Of a DNA stretch of 20,374 nt, positions 250 to 10,399 are shown one piece after another. Each line of letters starts with the position of its first letter. Position 1 is the stretch's first letter. The position numbers were made by a program, and so were the translations under genes. The stretch is taken from positions 1 to 20,374 of the forward strand of contig JAADIO010000029.1 in NCBI GenBank assembly GCA_013151235.1. Reading direction: 5' to 3'. The notes under the pieces are model-generated. The model saw nothing but the letters and a program-made list of their open reading frames with translations. It did not search any database and had not been told where the DNA came from. This stretch comes from Deltaproteobacteria bacterium. Lineage in GTDB: Bacteria > CG2-30-53-67.

Positions 250-2073
250 CTAATTAGCCAGAATTACACTCTTAATCACAGGCACAGAACGTGTCTCCTG
301 CTCATATTCATAGGCACCAATATCAAACAAGCCGTTTTGGGGTCTTGTGACTCCTTTGAAATCATGTAATACAATTCCGCTTGTATCCATACCGACATCA
401 ATTGCAGGAGATCCTGCAGAAAGATCAAAATTATCCGACAGGACACCGACAAAAGCTGGATTTCTCCCTGTTATATTGTTCAAAAAGCAGGAAGAAATGG
501 TGCTGGCAGTGGTACCTTTAGTGCTGAACCATAAATTATGGTCTCCAGATACATGGGGATATTTGCCGGGATCAATATTAGTGAATGCGTACCCCTGTGT
601 ATCAACAATAATATTGTTTTTTATGGAACAGGTAACATGGCCATAGTTGCTGGTTGTATAAAACCATATACCAGCTTCACCACCCCCACCATAAGAATCA
701 CCGTAGGCATATATAGTATTGTTATATATCCTTATGGTACTTGACATCCCACGATCCCCTATCCTGATAGCAGCTTCTTCTGCATTCGCCTCATCTTTTG
801 GCCCCTTTCCTGAATTGAGCAAAATGTTGTTATAAACATCGAATGAGCCACTCCAACAGATACTCCCATCTGCTGCACGCGATCCAATGTTGATCCCTGG
901 TCCTCGTTGGTTTAGTACATAATTATCATGGATTTTAACGGTACCGCTAAAATTTCCACAAGTTGTTCCATATGTCTCATCATAGTTGTTCAACCCATAC
1001 TTGGATTTATTGTCCTTAAGAACATTCCAACCCAATTCCCACGGACTCACATTCGTAATCGTGTTGCTGCGTATAGAAAGATATACCGTATGTTGGAACT
1101 TGGATGTCTGATCACAACCGAAATCATGTATATAATTCCCCAGGATCCTGGCATCCGACAAATAATCATAAGAAGCACAATTCGTTGAGATTGCACCTTG
1201 CTCGCCAGAAGTACATTTCCCGGGAATATCGGTTATTTCATTACCAACTATCCTGCCAGATGCCGTTGGCCTGATACCTCTCGCTGTTCCAGGATGAAGA
1301 ATAGTTGTGTCTCCTACAGACGGTTCATCATAGTTACCTATTCTTATTACATACTTTGATATGACAATCCCTTTGGCTTTATATGAATCAATTCCCTGAT
1401 TGTCTCCCTGTGCAGTACAACGGCTGTTCGGATAAGCGGCAAAAGCCGTCTGGTTCATCGCACCACTGACCAAATAGTCAATGCGAATGCCGGTAAGGCC
1501 ACTTGAATAGGAGTTTATCTCCTGCACTCCATCAAGCACATATACAATATCCCCCGGCTGTATTTTCGTACTGGCACCATTTGTATATCTCGAGACAGTT
1601 TTCCATGGATGTACCCATGAACCATCGCCAGTGGAGTTATTCCCTGTTTCACTGACATAATATATGGAGCCCGACCGTACGGTAAACGGCAATGTATTCG
1701 ACAGAATACCGTTCACCTTTAACTGAATCTGATATGTACCCTTGGTCAACGTACCGGGTACAGAAAATGCTATTTCTTGCATTTTGCTGTATGTATACAG
1801 ATCAGCAGGACCTCCCGGAAGTCGCCCATCCGCGTTTTTCCAGTAATAAATATGTGCCGGAGCGATACCGCCTATTGTCAAAGTAGATGCAGCCTGACTG
1901 TTCCCAAGGTTACGACCCCAAAGAGTTACAATGGTACCCTGCCCATAACCATCATTCAGCCCACTACTCGGCCCATTTGTCATGTCAGTAAAAAACAAAA
2001 CAGGAGCCGCGGCATAAGCGATAGATGTAAGGCCTAAAAACACTAATACACAAAAACTTATTATTCTTCTCAT
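250..2073 (-). CDS. Secreted TIG-domain / parallel beta-helix protein with choice-of-anchor-Q-like end
   Basis: 607 residues. The N-terminus (about 1-22, MRRIISFCVLVFLG... ending AYA-A) is a Sec signal peptide. Residues about 25-131 look like an IPT/TIG immunoglobulin-like fold. Residues about 135-560 carry repeated short strands of the pattern 'I.nN.I', typical of right-handed parallel beta-helix (PbH1) proteins. The C-terminus has 'LSAGSPAIDVG' and 'DIGAYEY', hallmarks of the choice-of-anchor-Q region found at the end of such surface proteins. No membrane anchor or lipobox is seen, so it is secreted or held on the surface by an unknown route. The ATG at 2073 is preceded by GGAG seven bases upstream. 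It is the last gene of a three-gene minus-strand operon, 66 bases after the Fn3 gene. Its DNA is clearly richer in A/T than the rest of the window, which hints at separate origin. Polysaccharide binding or cleavage is possible for this fold, but no catalytic residues were identified. Confidence 0.88.
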   Translation of the reverse strand: MRRIISFCVLVFLGLTSIAYAAAPVLFFTDMTNGPSSGLNDGYGQGTIVTLWGRNLGNSQAASTLTIGGIAPAHIYYWKNADGRLPGGPADLYTYSKMQEIAFSVPGTLTKGTYQIQLKVNGILSNTLPFTVRSGSIYYVSETGNNSTGDGSWVHPWKTVSRYTNGASTKIQPGDIVYVLDGVQEINSYSSGLTGIRIDYLVSGAMNQTAFAAYPNSRCTAQGDNQGIDSYKAKGIVISKYVIRIGNYDEPSVGDTTILHPGTARGIRPTASGRIVGNEITDIPGKCTSGEQGAISTNCASYDYLSDARILGNYIHDFGCDQTSKFQHTVYLSIRSNTITNVSPWELGWNVLKDNKSKYGLNNYDETYGTTCGNFSGTVKIHDNYVLNQRGPGINIGSRAADGSICWSGSFDVYNNILLNSGKGPKDEANAEEAAIRIGDRGMSSTIRIYNNTIYAYGDSYGGGGEAGIWFYTTSNYGHVTCSIKNNIIVDTQGYAFTNIDPGKYPHVSGDHNLWFSTKGTTASTISSCFLNNITGRNPAFVGVLSDNFDLSAGSPAIDVGMDTSGIVLHDFKGVTRPQNGLFDIGAYEYEQETRSVPVIKSVILAN

Positions 2074-2139: not shown

Positions 2140-2502
2140 TCAGGGTGTGCTGCTTACGACAGTAACATTATGAGGAACCGCAGGAATCGTGGATAGTTTT
2201 TTCTCTTCCGCCGTAGAAGTACGCTCACTCCCATCACTCATCACAGCCGAAATGGTGAAGTAGACCGGGTACTGCGTTATATCCACATTTGTACATGCTA
2301 ATGTCGTAGCTGTCGCATCACCGGTCTCACACGCAAGCGTTTTACCGCTCATGTCCGCGCTGTAAGAATAGTACATCTTGTATCCCTGAAGATTGCTGGT
2401 GTCCGCCATTGACCAAGTAATCGTTACGGTTTTAGATGCACTCCACACCACAGAAGGGAATAGAAACAACAAAACAAAACAAGCAAGGACTGATTTTACC
2501 AC
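2140..2502 (-). CDS. Small secreted single fibronectin-type-III domain protein
   Basis: 120 residues from a GTG start. An ATG exists at 2538 and another at 2517, but the only good Shine-Dalgarno sequence, GGAGGA (about 2514-2509), sits inside that longer frame and exactly seven bases before GTG at 2502. Starting there gives a clean signal peptide (MVKSVLACFVLLFLFPSVVWSA). The mature part is one Fn3-like beta-sandwich ('VTITWSMADTSNLQGYKMYYS...'), the same fold that begins the 860-residue protein upstream; two cysteines (in ACETG and ACTN) could form a disulfide. It has no anchor, and its end (SSTP) is abrupt for a full-length partner. It lies 58 bases downstream of the 860-residue gene and 66 bases before the beta-helix gene, so co-transcription is likely. 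Function is unknown; a structural or adhesive extracellular role is inferred. Confidence 0.8.
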   Translation of the reverse strand: MVKSVLACFVLLFLFPSVVWSASKTVTITWSMADTSNLQGYKMYYSYSADMSGKTLACETGDATATTLACTNVDITQYPVYFTISAVMSDGSERTSTAEEKKLSTIPAVPHNVTVVSSTP

Positions 2503-2560
2503 TTGATTTTCCTCCATCCCGCATATTCGTATCTGCATATCACCATAAAACTGTATTTTC

Positions 2561-5143
2561 TCATTGTTTCCTGCATCGGATTCTCACAATTAGAACAAAC
2601 ACCGGAAGCAACAGAAACAGGCCATCCACCCCGTTCCCCGGCCGACCGGACAAGGCGCAACCACCACCGCCTCCACCACTTCCAGCGGAAGCCCCGGAGG
2701 ATCCGGATGAATTTGAGAGGGGCTCTCCGACAAACCCAGGGTCCACGATCACACCGTTCGCCGTCTTATCGGCATCTCCCGTCCCGCCGTCGGTCAGAGT
2801 GAAACTCAGGCGGTTACCCGATACGACGGCACTCAGCTCCGTAAAACCGTTCCCCGTATCATACTTCCAGTATTCCACATCTGCAGGAAAGCTTGCCTGA
2901 CTGTAGATCGTGACCGTAACGCTTCCTCCGACAGCAACGTTTTCTATCTTATATTGAAATCCGCCGTATGAAAAGTCCGCCGGGAGACTTTCCGACAGAT
3001 AAGCGGAAGGACTGCTGATAAATACGGCTTCGGCAATCCGGACAGCCGAAGCGGAGACCTTCAGCGCAATCTTTCCCTTCTTCCCTTCCAATGTCACCAG
3101 CGTAGCGTCCAGACGATCCGGAACCCCATCACCATCAATGTCATTGCTCAATTCCTGGCTGTCCGGAATCCCGTCATTGTCCGAATCGGTATCCAACGCA
3201 TCGATGATCCCGTCTCCATCCGAATCCAGAGGAGAAGATATATTGCCGATCTCCTGACTGTCCGGGATTCCGTCCTGGTCGCTGTCGGTCAGGTTGGGAT
3301 TCAGAGCGATGGATGTCTCTTCAATGTTCGTCAATCCGTCGCCATCCTGATCACCGTTCGGACCGTCCGTATCATTCATATCAACATAGTTGGGGGCGCC
3401 GTCGTTGTCGGAGTCGCCTGTACCCTCTACGGCATCCGGTTTCCCGTCGTTGTCGGAATCAAGATCAAGGGCGTCGATCGTGCCGTCACCGTCAGAATCG
3501 ATGGGAGTCTTCCCTTTGTCAAATTCCGCCTGATCGGAAATCCCGTCTCCGTCGGAATCGGCAAGGTTCGGGTTCAACCCATATGTCACCTCGGTCGAAT
3601 TGCTGATTCCGTCGCCATCCTGATCACCGTTCGGACCGTCCGTATCATTCATATCAACATAGTTGGGGGCGCCGTCGTTGTCAGAGTCGCCTATACCTTC
3701 CACGGCATCCGGTTTTCCGTCGTTGTCGGAGTCGAGATCAAGGACGTCGATCGTGCCGTCACCGTCGGAATCGATAGGACGGACCCCGTTCCCCCATTCA
3801 ACAAAATCCGATATTCCGTCGCCGTCCGAATCGGCAAGGTTCGGATCCAATCCATACTTAAGCTCCTGACTGTTGGAGAGTCCGTCATGATCCGGATCCG
3901 CCTGTGAATCATAAACGGTGATCATCTTGCTGACGGTTGTTTCCCCTCCATTATTATCGGTAACCCGGAGAGAGACCGCAAAACCGCCCGCCGCTGAAAA
4001 GGTGTGCGAAGGATTCGCCGTATAGGCGGAGGAATGATCACCGAAATCCCAGACATAACCGGTGACCTGCCCGTCACTGTCCGATGCGTTCGCCGTAAAT
4101 GCCACAGTCAACGGGGCAACACCGGTCGTTTTGTCCGCGGTCATGGTCACGGAGGGCGGAACATTCGGATGATCGGAGACAACGATCGACTGTGAGGCGG
4201 TCGCGGTGGCCCCCTGGTTATCCGTTATCGTGAGCGTCGCCGTATAGGTGCCGGCCACACGATAGACATGCGTGGGCGCAGAACCTGAACCGCTGCTTCC
4301 GTCGCCAAAATTCCAGGCATAGGAAGCAATCGTTCCGTCCGTATCCGTCCCCAGGCCGTAGAACCGGACGGAGAGAGACACCTGTCCCTGCGTCGGCGAG
4401 GCGCTTACCGAGGCGGTAGGCGGCGAATTGCCCGAAGACGCCGCCTGCTCTACGACAACCTGGACCGTATCCGTACTGCTCGCCTTCCCGTCATTGACGG
4501 TCAGCTTGAAAACCAGCGTCTGACCGGAAAGGGCCGAAGTAGCCGAAAAGAACGGTGTGGCCGCAGTGCTGCCCAACAGGTTCACCGCCCCGCCGGAGAC
4601 TTGTACCCACGAATAAGTCAGGTTATCTCCGTCCGGATCGGAGCTCCCGCTCCCATCCAGATTGACCTGGATACTCCCTCCCGTTAATTGCGATTGTGTG
4701 ACCGTTTGATCTGCTCCTGCCGAAGCCGTAGGGGCGTGATTTACACTCTCGGTGGCAGTCACTTCATTGGAATAGCCGCTCTCATTCCCGCTTGTATCGT
4801 AGGATGTAACAGCAATATGGTATGTAACGCCGGCGGTCAGGCCGCTCAGTGTAAGCTCCGGATTCGCCGGGTCGGAAAGGGATGCAACCGGGACCGAGAT
4901 CGGAGAATTCCCCTGGGAAAGCCCTGTACCGTTGTAGGGAGCGCCGGACCCGTCCGTATCATAATAAATCCTGTACCCGGCAAGATCGCTGCAGGCAGTT
5001 CCATCGGCATTGGTCGTCGTCTGATCCCAGGCAACGGTCACGGAAGCCTCGGCAAACCCTGGTCGGAGAGAAACCACCAGAAAACAAAGGATCAAAAAGA
5101 TCAAGCTTTTACTTCGGATTGTCTCCATTCGTAAAGCTTTCAT
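2561..5143 (-). CDS. Large surface protein: Fn3, PKD domains, thrombospondin-3 repeats, choice-of-anchor-U, Gly-Cys tail
   Basis: 860 residues. The signal peptide is at about 1-31 (MKALRMETIRSKSLIFLILCFLVV...). Then come an Fn3 domain (about 32-133), a PKD/REJ-like domain (134-234), two PKD domains with 'WNFGDG' and 'WDFGD' (235-314, 315-411), and a long calcium-binding thrombospondin type-3 stretch (about 412-680) of 'DSDGDGI' loops. A choice-of-anchor-U type region follows (about 690-810, with 'DGGTGDADKTANGVIVDPG'). The C-terminal sorting-like tail is a Ser/Gly run, GGGGGGC (Cys829), a hydrophobic segment and a basic end (RIRCRKQ). Such tails (JDVT/Synergist-CTERM-like) are thought to be processed and anchored at the glycine-cysteine site. 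The ATG at 5143 has GAGG seven bases upstream. It is first in the operon and directly follows the riboswitch/terminator leader. Likely role: calcium-stabilised adhesin or matrix protein; the ligand is unknown. Confidence 0.9.
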   Translation of the reverse strand: MKALRMETIRSKSLIFLILCFLVVSLRPGFAEASVTVAWDQTTTNADGTACSDLAGYRIYYDTDGSGAPYNGTGLSQGNSPISVPVASLSDPANPELTLSGLTAGVTYHIAVTSYDTSGNESGYSNEVTATESVNHAPTASAGADQTVTQSQLTGGSIQVNLDGSGSSDPDGDNLTYSWVQVSGGAVNLLGSTAATPFFSATSALSGQTLVFKLTVNDGKASSTDTVQVVVEQAASSGNSPPTASVSASPTQGQVSLSVRFYGLGTDTDGTIASYAWNFGDGSSGSGSAPTHVYRVAGTYTATLTITDNQGATATASQSIVVSDHPNVPPSVTMTADKTTGVAPLTVAFTANASDSDGQVTGYVWDFGDHSSAYTANPSHTFSAAGGFAVSLRVTDNNGGETTVSKMITVYDSQADPDHDGLSNSQELKYGLDPNLADSDGDGISDFVEWGNGVRPIDSDGDGTIDVLDLDSDNDGKPDAVEGIGDSDNDGAPNYVDMNDTDGPNGDQDGDGISNSTEVTYGLNPNLADSDGDGISDQAEFDKGKTPIDSDGDGTIDALDLDSDNDGKPDAVEGTGDSDNDGAPNYVDMNDTDGPNGDQDGDGLTNIEETSIALNPNLTDSDQDGIPDSQEIGNISSPLDSDGDGIIDALDTDSDNDGIPDSQELSNDIDGDGVPDRLDATLVTLEGKKGKIALKVSASAVRIAEAVFISSPSAYLSESLPADFSYGGFQYKIENVAVGGSVTVTIYSQASFPADVEYWKYDTGNGFTELSAVVSGNRLSFTLTDGGTGDADKTANGVIVDPGFVGEPLSNSSGSSGASAGSGGGGGGCALSGRPGNGVDGLFLLLPVFVLIVRIRCRKQ
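3338..3779. repeat. Nearly identical tandem DNA repeat inside the TSP3 region (period 273 bp)
   Basis: The segments 3338-3506 and 3611-3779 are nearly identical at DNA level, offset by 273 bases (91 codons, in frame). Each encodes the same run of Asp-rich loops ending in 'YVDMNDTDGPNGDQDGDG'. The few differences are mostly silent, so the copies are recent or kept alike by recombination. This allows in-frame gain or loss of 91-residue units and so length variation of the surface protein. Confidence 0.85.
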
Positions 5144-5159
5144 AAATCTACCTCACCAC

Positions 5160-5195
5160 AAAAAAAGGCCGCCAGGAAAACTTCCTCTGGCGACC
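5160..5195 (-). terminator. Intrinsic terminator directly upstream of the 860-residue gene (leader attenuator)
   Basis: On the minus strand GGTCGCCAG...GGAA (5195-5181) pairs with TTCC TGGCGGCC (5180-5167), followed by seven T (5166-5160). The ribosome binding site (GAGG, near 5154) and the ATG at 5143 come immediately after the T tract. A terminator placed between promoter and start codon makes sense only as an attenuator. It lies about 55 bases downstream of the GEMM-type aptamer that probably controls it. The linker between them is pyrimidine-rich and seems unstructured, and I did not find an obvious antiterminator helix. Confidence 0.8.
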
Positions 5196-5249
5196 CGGCC
5201 GACATAGAAACAGAAAAGGGGAATCGGGAAATAGGAATTGGAAAAACAA

Positions 5250-5326
5250 GGGCAACCCCATACCCATCACCGTTTCATTAGTCCCGAGGCTCTGCGTCCC
5301 GCGGTTTCCCGCGGTTTGCTCTGAGC
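5250..5326 (-). promoter_or_regulatory. GEMM-I class cyclic-dinucleotide riboswitch aptamer (possible cGAMP-type, A at the G20 position)
   Basis: Read on the minus strand, the core shows the GEMM-I signature in order: AGAGCAAACC, a 6-bp stem CCGCGG closed by a GAAA tetraloop (5314-5299), then GGGACGCAGAGCC, CGGGACTAA and a closing GGGGTTGCC. These match the Vibrio Vc2 c-di-GMP-I aptamer closely. Aligned on GCAAACC, the base matching Vc2 G20 is A (CAGAGC here, CAGGGC in Vc2). In this family A at that site marks the GEMM-Ib variants that recognise 3',3'-cGAMP, known from deltaproteobacteria. A competing hairpin TTTGCT/AGCAAA overlaps the 5' side of the core. Class assignment is fairly sure; ligand preference is inferred from a hand alignment. 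Confidence 0.8.
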
Positions 5327-5373
5327 AAAGGAAAACTATTTTATATCAGTATGTTACACCTCATTTCCTCCAC

Positions 5374-5408
5374 AAAAAAACCCAGCATACCGAAAAAGGC
5401 ATCCTGGG
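5374..5408 (-). terminator. First leader terminator (upstream attenuator)
   Basis: On the minus strand CCCAG-G-ATGCC (5408-5398) pairs with GGTAT-G-CTGGG (5391-5381) around one G/G mismatch with a T-rich loop, followed by seven T (5380-5374). It ends the first leader element, upstream of the GEMM aptamer, so a transcript must pass two terminators to reach the coding genes. The 11-mer TTTTTTTGTGG occurs here and again after the second terminator. Confidence 0.75.
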
Positions 5409-5444
5409 TAAAAGTCCTCGGGCATCCTGCCGCCCACTATTTTA

Positions 5445-5533
5445 CCACTTCGGGAGGTCATGACCGACCTTAATGATAAGGCCTCACAACTCTGCGATCC
5501 CGGCCTTCCGACCGGAACTGCCTTTATCGGTGG
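5445..5533 (-). promoter_or_regulatory. Structured leader element upstream of first terminator, possibly a diverged GEMM-like aptamer
   Basis: The minus-strand RNA can fold as a closed unit: CCAC/GTGG at the ends (5533-5530 with 5448-5445), GATAA-GGC with GCCTTATC, a 6-bp stem CCGGTC/GGCCGG with a GGAA (GNRA) tetraloop, and AGGTC/GACCT. Its order resembles the GEMM aptamer downstream: a purine-rich lead GGCA, a 6-bp GNRA hairpin, GA(T)CGCAGAG, then GGCCTTA (GGCCTAA in Vc2). The lead lacks the usual AAACC (here GTTCC) and the closing strand is unlike the consensus. It is either a diverged sibling or another class; the terminator after it supports a switch role. Confidence 0.42.
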
Positions 5534-5544
5534 TTCTATTTTAA

Positions 5545-5573
5545 ACATTACCCTCACTCGTCAATAATGTCAA
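5545..5573 (-). promoter_or_regulatory. Candidate sigma-70 promoter inside the leader
   Basis: On the minus strand TTGACA (5573-5568) is followed after exactly 17 bases by TAATGT (5550-5545). The -35 box is perfect but the -10 box matches only three of six consensus bases. Transcription would start near 5538, just before the first structured element, so the leader could also be made without the sigma-54 promoter. The TTGACA may instead be part of an operator, since the hexamer occurs three times here. Confidence 0.35.
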
Positions 5574-5588
5574 TGTCAATTTTTGACA
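5568..5588. repeat. Cluster of TTGACA half-sites with a perfect palindrome
   Basis: TGTCAA at 5568-5573, TGTCAA at 5574-5579 and TTGACA at 5583-5588. The last two form a perfect inverted repeat with a TTT spacer. It lies about 8-28 bases downstream of the start point predicted for the sigma-54 promoter and overlaps the candidate -35 box, an arrangement that would suit a repressor operator. No protein can be named from the site alone. Confidence 0.45.
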
Positions 5589-7451: not shown

Positions 7452-8321
7452 ATGATAAACGCCCTTTCCGTCGACGTGGAAGAATATTTTCAGGTATCCG
7501 CCTTTGACCAGGTGATCGACCGGCGAAGATGGCCAGCACTGGAAAGCCGCCTTGCCAACCCCCTCCACAGGATCCTGGACCTCTTCGATCGCTATAAAAC
7601 AAATGCTACCTTCTTTGTCCTGGGTTGGATCGCAGAGCGTCACCCGGCGCTGATCGGCGAGATCCATGCACGAGGCCACGAAATCGCCTCCCACGGATAT
7701 GAGCACCGGCTGATCTATGAAAGCTCTCCGAATCACTTCGCGGGAGACCTTGAAAGATCCCGGAAGACTCTGGAGGATATCACCGGACATGGTATTCTCG
7801 GATACCGTGCCCCCAGCTATTCCATTACACGCGAAAACATGTGGGCCTTTGATGCCCTGATCGAACAGGGGTTCGTATATGATTCCAGTATCTTTCCGAT
7901 CCATCACGATCGTTACGGCATATCCGGCAGTCCCCGTTTTCCCTATACGATCAGGCGTAAAAACGGCCGGATCCTGGAGTTTCCCCTCTCGACGGCACGC
8001 ATTATGGGCGGCAATATCCCGGTCGCGGGAGGGGGCTACCTCCGTCTCTTCCCTTTCCCACTTATTCGTTGGGGGCTGCGACACATCAACCGCAAGGAAA
8101 AAGAACCTTTCATCCTCTATTTTCATCCATGGGAGATCGACCCGGAACAACCACGGCAGGCGGTCAATGCTGTAACCCGTTTCCGCCACTATCACAACCT
8201 CAACCGGATGGAAGGAAAGATCGAGCATCTCCTGCAGGAATTCACCTTTACTTCCGTCTCCGGTTTACTAAAAGTGCTCTTCTCCCACGACTATACAGAG
8301 ACAACGGGGACCGCGACATGA
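7452..8321 (+). CDS. XrtA-system-type polysaccharide deacetylase (NodB fold + DUF3473)
   Basis: 289 residues. The start 'MINALSVDVEEYFQVSAF' is the signature of the polysaccharide deacetylases tied to XrtA/PEP-CTERM exopolysaccharide loci. NodB-fold motifs are seen: D8-V-E (motif 1), 'SHGYEH' with H81 and H85 as metal ligands (motif 2), 'RAPSYS' (motif 3), and 'FHPWEID' near the end. The C-terminal part ('GGGYLRLFPF...YFHPWEIDP') is the DUF3473 extension. It should remove acetyl groups from N-acetylated sugars in the exopolysaccharide. There is no signal peptide, which is usual for this subgroup. Upstream GAG/AGAAG makes only a weak ribosome site. Its TGA overlaps the ATG of prsK (ATGA, 8318-8321), so the two are translationally coupled. 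Confidence 0.9.
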   Translation: MINALSVDVEEYFQVSAFDQVIDRRRWPALESRLANPLHRILDLFDRYKTNATFFVLGWIAERHPALIGEIHARGHEIASHGYEHRLIYESSPNHFAGDLERSRKTLEDITGHGILGYRAPSYSITRENMWAFDALIEQGFVYDSSIFPIHHDRYGISGSPRFPYTIRRKNGRILEFPLSTARIMGGNIPVAGGGYLRLFPFPLIRWGLRHINRKEKEPFILYFHPWEIDPEQPRQAVNAVTRFRHYHNLNRMEGKIEHLLQEFTFTSVSGLLKVLFSHDYTETTGTAT

Positions 8322-10399
8322 TGGTAACAGCGCTGTTGATCCTTTGCATGCTGATCACTTCCGTCACGGCTTTGCTGCTGCTCACGCGTGAACGGAAAAG
8401 TATTGCATTGAAAACGCTGGGGCAAACGGCCGGGTTGCATGCATTCATTATCCTCTGGCTGTTCCTCTCCTGGAACGGGTTCCTCCCCTTTCTCACTCTT
8501 TTGCCGCTGCGGATTGTCCTCTCCCTTTTCTCGCTGACGCTCTATACCTCGGTCCTCTTTTCTTTCCATCATGTCCGTTTTGAACGACCGCTCCTTCCCG
8601 GGATTCAACGAATCGCATTACCTGTATCGGCTTTTCTGGCCGCACTCTTTTTTCTCCTCTCCTTCCATCCGATACTCCTGGCCGAAAAGACACTGCTTAA
8701 CGGCCGGATCGCACTCCGTTTCGGGCCGGCAGGAACCCTCTTCGGCATCGCAACCATCCTCTGTCAGTTGATCATTCTCTTTCAGATGGAGCAAACCTTT
8801 CGCTCCGCCTCAACAAATCAACGGATCCGGCTCAAATTTCTCATCCTGGGAATTGCCTGCGGCAGTCTGTATCTCCTTTTTCTGGCCGGCAGGATTCTCC
8901 TGTATCATTCCATCGCAATTGATTATCTGGTCGCCGGCGCCGTCGTCGCTTCGGCCTGCTGGTTGATGATCCTTTTTGCAATGGTTCGACATCGTTTATT
9001 GCAGGCGGATCTCTTTATCTCCCGACAGGTCGTTTTTACTTCCGTTGCGGCCTTCGGAATCGGTCTTTATCTCTTCGTTGCAGGAATGATTGGATTCTTC
9101 ATCCGTTCCCGGCGGAGTCAATGGGACCTGCTGATCACGATTATCTTCGTCGCCCTGACCATTATTTTTTTCGCCATGCTCCTTTACTCCCCCGTCCTGC
9201 AACGACGGATCAAACATTTCATCCACACCCACTTCTACCGTTACCAGTATGACTACCGAGAGGAATGGAAGGAATTCACCCGGAAGATCATTGCCGCCCG
9301 GGACCTTCCCCAACTCCTCGAAGGGGTCATCGAAATGATCTCCGAAACCCTTTGGATCAACCAGCTCTCCCTCTGGCTCTTTAATGAAAAGACGGGGATT
9401 CTGACATTTACCACCAGCCGCAACCTTCCCAGGAAGGCCCAATTCGTCCGCAGGGAATCCCCGCTGGTGGCCTCCCTGCTCCGTACCGGCACCCCCTTTA
9501 CCACACAATCGTCACGAGGAAGGAAGACCGCAGAAGCAATGAAGGATTTCTTCCAGCGATACCAGATCTCGATGATCGTTCCGCTCAAACTGGGCAAACG
9601 GCTGGTCGGGATGATCACATTAGGCCCCACGATGAAAGGAACCGACTATACGGATGAGGACGGGGAGCTCCTGACCATGATCGCGGATCAGGCCGCCGGC
9701 GCCATTATCAGCGCCCAGTTAATCGAGGAGATCGGCCGGACCAAGGAAGAAGAGTCCTTCAACAAGATCTCCTCCTTCCTGGTTCATGATCTGAAAAACC
9801 TGGTCTCTTCCCTGTCGCTGGCCCTGCAGAATGCCAAGCGGAACATTGCCAATCCCGCTTTCCAGATGGACCTCCTCTCAACATTGGTGAATACCATCGA
9901 GAAAATGCAGACCCTCATCGAGAAACTCTCCACACTTCCGAAGGAACTGGTGATCCACAAGGAACCGGTCAACATCAACCGGTTGATTCGGGAAGCCATA
10001 GAGAGTTCCCGTGTAGACAACCTGCGGAATGTGGAACTGCACACGGAACTGAATGAACTCCCCCTGATCCAGGCGGATGGCGAATATGTGAAAAAGGTCC
10101 TGGTCAATCTGATTCTGAACGCCGTCCAGGCACTGCCGAACGGCAGGGGAAGGATCGAGATCTCCTCTTACGACAGCGACGGCTATGTCCGAGCCGAGGT
10201 CCTGGACGATGGAGAAGGAATGTCGGACGAGTTTATCACCCAGGAACTCTTCAAGCCCTATCGCTCGACAAAGAAGAAGGGATTGGGAATCGGTCTTTTC
10301 CAATGCAAGACCATTATGGAAGCCCACGGCGGAAAGATTGAAGTCCACAGCCTGCCGCAACGGGGCTCTCAATTTATCCTGAGTTTTCCCATTGCATAG
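8318..10399 (+). CDS. prsK: XrtA/PEP-CTERM system histidine kinase PrsK
   Basis: 693 residues from the ATG at 8318, which overlaps the deacetylase stop and has GGGGA seven bases upstream. The frame stays open further upstream, but that part is antisense-like shadow. About 290 N-terminal residues form a row of membrane helices (seven to nine). A GAF-like domain follows (about 340-470, 'LLEGVIEMISETLWINQLSLWLFNEKTG'), then the dimerisation box with the phospho-acceptor H490 in 'FLVHDLKNL', and a HATPase domain with N box 'NLILNAVQAL', G1 'DDGEGM' and G2 'GLGIGL'. This layout is PrsK. PrsK with the sigma-54 activator PrsR controls genes of the XrtA sorting/exopolysaccharide system. No prsR lies next to it; an NCS2-like permease follows nine bases later instead. 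Confidence 0.88.
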   Translation: MMVTALLILCMLITSVTALLLLTRERKSIALKTLGQTAGLHAFIILWLFLSWNGFLPFLTLLPLRIVLSLFSLTLYTSVLFSFHHVRFERPLLPGIQRIALPVSAFLAALFFLLSFHPILLAEKTLLNGRIALRFGPAGTLFGIATILCQLIILFQMEQTFRSASTNQRIRLKFLILGIACGSLYLLFLAGRILLYHSIAIDYLVAGAVVASACWLMILFAMVRHRLLQADLFISRQVVFTSVAAFGIGLYLFVAGMIGFFIRSRRSQWDLLITIIFVALTIIFFAMLLYSPVLQRRIKHFIHTHFYRYQYDYREEWKEFTRKIIAARDLPQLLEGVIEMISETLWINQLSLWLFNEKTGILTFTTSRNLPRKAQFVRRESPLVASLLRTGTPFTTQSSRGRKTAEAMKDFFQRYQISMIVPLKLGKRLVGMITLGPTMKGTDYTDEDGELLTMIADQAAGAIISAQLIEEIGRTKEEESFNKISSFLVHDLKNLVSSLSLALQNAKRNIANPAFQMDLLSTLVNTIEKMQTLIEKLSTLPKELVIHKEPVNINRLIREAIESSRVDNLRNVELHTELNELPLIQADGEYVKKVLVNLILNAVQALPNGRGRIEISSYDSDGYVRAEVLDDGEGMSDEFITQELFKPYRSTKKKGLGIGLFQCKTIMEAHGGKIEVHSLPQRGSQFILSFPIA

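Follow-up and report, generated by a model that had tools for sequence, protein, structure and literature searches.

A leader with two GEMM-I-type riboswitches in series ahead of a surface-protein operon: a predicted gate for two cyclic dinucleotides

Which signals does the RNA leader of a surface-protein operon read when it carries a GEMM-I riboswitch with an A at the base that specifies the ligand? The question is raised by a 20,374-nucleotide stretch deposited as deltaproteobacterial DNA (contig JAADIO010000029.1, assembly GCA_013151235.1; the whole stretch is called the window hereafter). An earlier note on this DNA had described a single such riboswitch at 5250-5326 on the minus strand, and had proposed a shift of its recognition from cyclic di-GMP (c-di-GMP) toward 3',3'-cyclic GMP-AMP (cGAMP). 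Our analysis points to two transcriptional riboswitches of GEMM-I type, each complete in itself and placed one behind the other, with opposite predicted signs. The best reading, which we consider fairly probable, is a gate for two dinucleotides of the NOT-A-AND-B type, plausibly NOT c-di-GMP AND cGAMP. Genomes (G) and loci (L) are cited below by their handles, G000 being the genome of the window.

The downstream aptamer, element 2, was confirmed with Infernal: the c-di-GMP-I model RF01051 matched at 5330..5186 (-) with 58.0 bits (E 3e-9, cmscan; gathering score 35), and was the sole Rfam family exceeding its threshold across the whole window. A subclass model built from 35 other members, R2, placed the aptamer at 5333..5182 with 78.8 bits. 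Position 11 of RF01051, which we equate with G20 of the Vc2 aptamer because it stands unpaired immediately 5' to the G21-C22 pair, is an A in the window and not a G, as the earlier note had stated. There is also a tetraloop, GAAA (5308-5305), and a receptor for it, CUAA/UAUG (5281-5278, 5206-5203). The features of element 2 are as follows.

5184..5331 (-): element 2, A20 GEMM-I aptamer, with A20 at 5320, A47 at 5293 and C92 at 5190
5331-5326/5189-5184 (-): helix P1 of element 2, CCUUUG/CAGAGG
5314-5299 (-): helix P2 of element 2
5212..5271 (-): 60-nt insert at the tip of P3, an insertion in the RF01051 alignment
5160..5196 (-): terminator T2 (-20 kcal/mol, z -2.4), classed as ON-type, with C92 and the first bases of the P1 3' strand falling in its 5' arm

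The 3' half of the aptamer had been misplaced by the earlier note, which closed it with GGTTGCC (5257-5251). This motif lies inside the P3 insert, and the true aptamer extends over about 5331-5184, with a distal P3 helix, GAAAC/GUUUC, that closes in the long fold. A short fold closed by GGTTGCC reached 39.2 bits, versus 58.0 for the long one, and was rejected. Rejected too was the idea that the insert is a dispersed repeat, a single partial match of 22 nt being found elsewhere in the genome. Minimum-energy folding of element 2 gave a z of -0.55, which the long insert makes uninformative. Capture of C92 and of the P1 3' strand by T2 is the layout of the pilM-like ON platform, and element 2 is probably an ON switch, predicted to respond to cGAMP. 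As for the shift in ligand, the proposal agrees in silico with the invariance of A20 in its subclass, with the ON-type platform and with a Hypr GGDEF protein in the genome, and in the Gmet_0970 riboswitch the substitution A20G is known to change the ligand from cGAMP to c-di-GMP (PMC6456294). However, A20 alone does not exclude binding of c-di-GMP (PMC9481103, PMC9262584).

When 84,980 species genomes were scanned with a pattern in which A20 was fixed, 106 stretches were returned; most were unmistakable GEMM-I aptamers, their core being CAGAGCAAACC...CGCAGAG. They occur in Nitrospirota, Gemmatimonadota, Desulfuromonadia and other genomes. Since A20 had been imposed by this pattern, a second search was made with position 20 left free: among 295 genomes of a Nitrospirota-level group, all 32 matches had an A and none a G. 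Across 35 aligned members, 110 cells of the helices had changed on both sides, versus 39.9 expected (0 of 500 shuffles), and P1 covaries; kinship inflates such counts, and sliding the partners abolishes the signal. An ON-type layout, in which the terminator includes C92 and the P1 3' strand, was seen in 59 of the 77 subclass members. R2 gave 74-86 bits to the other A20 copies of the lineage, 38.5 bits or less to most G20 copies, and 54 to the G20 copy at L056. Members of the family have been deposited under the names Nitrospirae CG2-30-53-67 and Hainich bin143 (Hainich-H32-bin143-1), and the deltaproteobacterial setting implied by the earlier note is not supported. We found no description of cGAMP riboswitches in Nitrospirota or Gemmatimonadota in the open-access literature. 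As a side observation, P3 is hypervariable in the A20 subclass: the gap from the core to the 3' motif ranges from 21 to more than 100 nt (L142 61-257 (-), L161, L164, L130 and others), and often holds imperfect self-complementary repeats.

Upstream of most A20 loci in the window's family, a second structured RNA is shared. Its window copy, element 1, and the associated features are the following.

5444..5534 (-): element 1, divergent GEMM-I-like aptamer (106.3 bits with the model R1, covariation, fold z -2.9), with G20 at 5522, A47 at 5493, C92 at 5453 and P1 at 5534-5530/5448-5444
5407..5446 (-): antiterminator of element 1, GGUAAAA (5446-5440) with UUUUACC (5413-5407), overlapping P1 and T1
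5374..5409 (-): terminator T1 (-18.3 kcal/mol, z -3.4) with a U-run, seen in all copies that were examined

Six copies of element 1 share an identical three-way junction with a GNRA-capped P2; 97.8% of the cells are paired, six pairs have changed on both sides, and the equivalents of G20, A47 and C92 are invariant. By structure, element 1 has what defines a GEMM-I aptamer. Its best Rfam family is c-di-GMP-I-GGC (RF03167), matched over the full length at the copies of the window (17.3 bits) and of L051, L024, L042 and L050 (19.5-22.6 bits), for a cut-off of 59; the L029 copy had no Rfam match. Conversely, R1 finds canonical G20 GEMM-I aptamers over their full length (L018, 36.9 bits, E 1e-7; L023, 45.9 bits), and the A20 model R2 recognises element 1 weakly. 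For these reasons, together with the invariant G20, A47 and C92, sequence comparison indicates that element 1 is a divergent relative of GEMM-I and not a formal Rfam member. Matches to twister, RcsR1 and anti-hemB RNA were isolated (E 2-10), and these identities were discarded.

P1 of element 1, the antiterminator and T1 are mutually exclusive and follow one another in the order of an OFF switch. Across seven loci, 14 of 1854 derangements of the antiterminator strands fitted as well as the strands with their own partners. Element 1 is therefore probably an OFF switch, its predicted sign being opposite to that of element 2, and the likeliest ligand would be c-di-GMP. The single-switch reading of the earlier note had overlooked it and its terminator T1, which together span 5534-5374. 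Separate terminators and antiterminator pairing are also found in several G20-type aptamers of the lineage, most clearly at L023, L186, L198 and L193. A further GEMM-I variant, which has a short P2 without GNRA loop (CCACCGATAAAGGCGACCC...GGGGAGCAAAGCC) and a clear OFF-type antiterminator, was noticed at L186 (1497-1575) and also at L180, L198 and L193; at the last three loci it precedes a sulfide:quinone-reductase-like gene.

The succession of element 1 and an A20 aptamer was found at seven loci in five genomes: in the window, and at six loci in four related genomes (L042 in G001; L053 and L196 in G002; L050 and L051 in G005; L055 in G004, where the contig begins inside element 1). Element 1 also stands directly before a gene at L045, with no adjoining second aptamer. 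More distant genomes combine A20 and G20 aptamers in one leader with A20 first (L166 7846-7594 (-); L078 6464-6890 (+), in Nitrospirae SZUA-242). A 2022 catalogue of tandem riboswitches lists adenosylcobalamin (AdoCbl)/c-AMP-GMP, AdoCbl/c-di-GMP-I and glycine/c-di-GMP-I pairs and no c-di-GMP/c-AMP-GMP pair (PMC9481103), and a 2025 survey treats the Rfam c-di-GMP models as one pooled family (PMC12452182).

We propose the following mechanism. Element 1 (5534-5374) would work as a Cd1-type platform: when its ligand is bound, P1 would take the antiterminator strand, T1 would form and transcription would stop. Element 2 (5331-5160) would work as a pilM-type platform, in which ligand-bound P1 would hold C92 and the strand needed by T2, allowing readthrough. 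With c-di-GMP as the ligand of element 1 and cGAMP as that of element 2, the FN3/PKD/TSP3 proteins encoded downstream would be made at high cGAMP and low c-di-GMP. The cGAMP may be supplied by a GacA-like Hypr GGDEF enzyme of the same genome.

A candidate for this enzyme was indeed found by the genome search that the earlier note had suggested. Out of 13 GGDEF matches in the genome of the window, one combines Ser at the Hypr site with the motif GGDEF in place of GGEEF. This protein, G000:C5, is a GAF-GGDEF cyclase with the motif GHLVGS, where Ser replaces the Asp of the Watson-Crick site (Ser348 of GacA). Among solved structures in the PDB, the Hypr GGDEF of Geobacter metallireducens (6d9m) comes closest to it, with 163 bits versus about 121 for the next GGDEF. 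In our reading of the alignment, G000:C5 has a Phe at the cross-dimer site, which is occupied by Arg in canonical enzymes and by Tyr in GacA (PMC6456294). The protein would be expected to make cGAMP. The Hypr pattern has one orthologue in each of G001-G004; none was found in G006 and G007, where A20 copies were also not found, and none matched in G005. More broadly, a confirmed Ser-type GG(D/E)EF protein is encoded by 34 of the 49 genomes carrying the A20 subclass, versus 7 of 54 comparison genomes, which were not phylogenetically matched, so that the Fisher p of 5e-9 is only a guide. Two other cyclase variants were noted: L064 (G000:C60:6097-6573 +) encodes a GGDEF protein with an Asn (GHFAGN) where canonical enzymes have Asp and Hypr enzymes Ser, and Nitrospiria genomes with the A20 subclass (L255-L262) encode GGEEF proteins with a Ser at the Hypr site (NDRYGHLEGS), unlike GacA.

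The main doubt about the gate concerns the ligand of element 1, and several observations weigh against the proposal. Element 1 stays far below the Rfam gathering score, its P2 internal loop differs from that of GEMM-I, and its antiterminator is short and mostly non-significant at single loci. Moreover, at L056 (2762-3091) the aptamer that follows element 1 has G20 in a scaffold resembling the A20 one, and its terminator is ON-type. If this aptamer and element 1 both sense c-di-GMP, L056 could be a band-pass rather than a gate; otherwise, element 1 may sense something else. The low Rfam scores, the altered internal loop, the GGAA/GUGA loops and the tandem with a G20 ON aptamer at L056 would all suit a leader in which element 2 is a cGAMP ON switch and element 1 answers another cyclic dinucleotide or a new molecule, which would still be a gate with two inputs. 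We hold this to be unlikely, though it is the foremost of the alternatives, as G20, A47 and C92 are invariant and R1 recognises canonical G20 GEMM-I aptamers over their full length.

Doubt may also be cast on the ligand of element 2, since an A20 aptamer of Desulfobacca gained affinity for c-AMP-GMP with only a slight loss of affinity for c-di-GMP (PMC9481103). An element 2 that would answer mainly c-di-GMP, or both dinucleotides, despite its A20 is nonetheless improbable in our estimate, in view of the invariance of A20 in the subclass and of the enrichment of Hypr-like cyclases in its carriers. Last, the A20 aptamer might be the only functional riboswitch and element 1 an unresponsive relic. 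At L054 in G003 an A20 aptamer does occur without element 1, and no copy of element 1 was found next to A20 loci in other phyla. However, five genomes conserve element 1 and T1, with covariation, and an operon lying behind an unresponsive aptamer and a strong terminator would be silenced, which makes this last reading very improbable. The gate remains our preferred explanation; its most specific form, NOT c-di-GMP AND cGAMP computed by two homologous GEMM-I aptamers of opposite sign, with element 1 as a new branch of the clan, is put forward tentatively, as slightly less likely than not.

Element 2 is like the GEMM-Ib riboswitches of Geobacter for c-AMP-GMP (3',3'-cGAMP), such as pilM (Gmet_0970) and pgcA (GSU1761), in its GEMM-I fold, its A20 and its ON-type terminator capturing C92 and the P1 3' strand, the layout described for the pilM ON switch (PMC9262584). 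In contrast to these, it belongs to the subclass CUCAGA20...CGCAGAG, in which a long P3 insert is frequent, its host is not Geobacter, and it controls a surface-protein operon with an opposite element upstream. Element 1 is like Cd1, a c-di-GMP-I OFF switch of Clostridioides difficile (PMC9262584), in having a separate terminator and in building its antiterminator with the P1 3' strand, whereas it lies far below the Rfam threshold, has another P2 internal loop and is in series with an A20 ON switch. RF03167 is the only Rfam family matched consistently and over the full length at copies of element 1; however, base 47 is a G in that family and an A in element 1. The arrangement as a whole recalls the AdoCbl/c-AMP-GMP tandem of Desulfobacca acetoxidans (PMC9481103), also a predicted NOT-A-AND-B gate with separate terminators, where the OFF element comes first and the cyclic-dinucleotide ON element second. 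The difference is that both elements of the leader are GEMM-I relatives, whose probable inputs are two dinucleotides made by GGDEF enzymes. G000:C5, the candidate cGAMP-making enzyme, shares with GacA the Ser at the specificity site, the GGDEF motif, a non-Arg cross-dimer site and the GAF-GGDEF architecture.

The leader precedes a TSP3/PKD adhesin-like operon, as the earlier note had described; the operon has three genes.

~5579-5144 (-): leader upstream of the three-gene surface-protein operon
5545..5579 (-): likely promoter, assigned by eye: TTGACA-TTGACA (5579-5568), 17-nt spacer, TAATGT (5550-5545)
2561..5143 (-): first gene, 860-amino-acid secreted FN3-like/PKD/TSP3 protein with a choice-of-anchor U domain
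2140..2538 (-): second gene, open reading frame for a 132-amino-acid protein, FN3-like by eye, no Pfam match
250..2073 (-): third gene, 607-amino-acid protein with a choice-of-anchor Q domain (NF041518, 45.3 bits, cut-off 25)

TTGACA, 17-18 nt and TANNNT are common to the tandem loci; a consensus promoter scan did not list the likely promoter and gave one match, at chance level. The first gene matched PKD_4 (135.7 bits) and TSP3_bac (41 bits) of Pfam, as well as NF041766 (90.9 bits, cut-off 32), and its PKD domain and choice-of-anchor U domain recur in the proteins behind L042 (66% identity) and L055 (58% identity). From these domains, a function at the surface, or in matrix or adhesion, may be proposed. 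The link extends across the subclass: among 74 first downstream genes, FN3 was the commonest domain (24), PKD was found in 8 and paired CXXCH cytochrome motifs in 3. Divergent from the operon (7452-10399 (+)) lie XrtA/PEP-CTERM exopolysaccharide genes, including an XrtA polysaccharide deacetylase (398 bits, cut-off 276) and a PrsK histidine kinase (413 bits, cut-off 300). Two other kinds of A20 targets were observed. A recurrent lipoprotein (SPKIYGT...) is followed, where the contig suffices, by a protein of about 850 amino acids at L071, L072, L116, L127, L138 and L162, forming a conserved A20-controlled pair. A ferredoxin/pyridine-nucleotide oxidoreductase gene (about 440 amino acids if complete) recurs in different phyla (L102, L109, L196), so that the A20 regulon would take in redox genes too.

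Cross-talk arises in cells that signal with both c-di-GMP and cGAMP, since both are products of related GGDEF enzymes. If the gate is real, the leader would solve this problem directly at the RNA level, by requiring one dinucleotide and being blocked by the other, and the cell would read the balance of the two at a single surface-protein promoter. Such a gate would fit the picture drawn in Geobacter, where transient attachment is linked to cGAMP and permanent attachment to c-di-GMP (PMC6456294). It would also extend cGAMP-type riboswitches and Hypr-type cyclases well past Geobacter, and tie them to FN3/PKD surface proteins.
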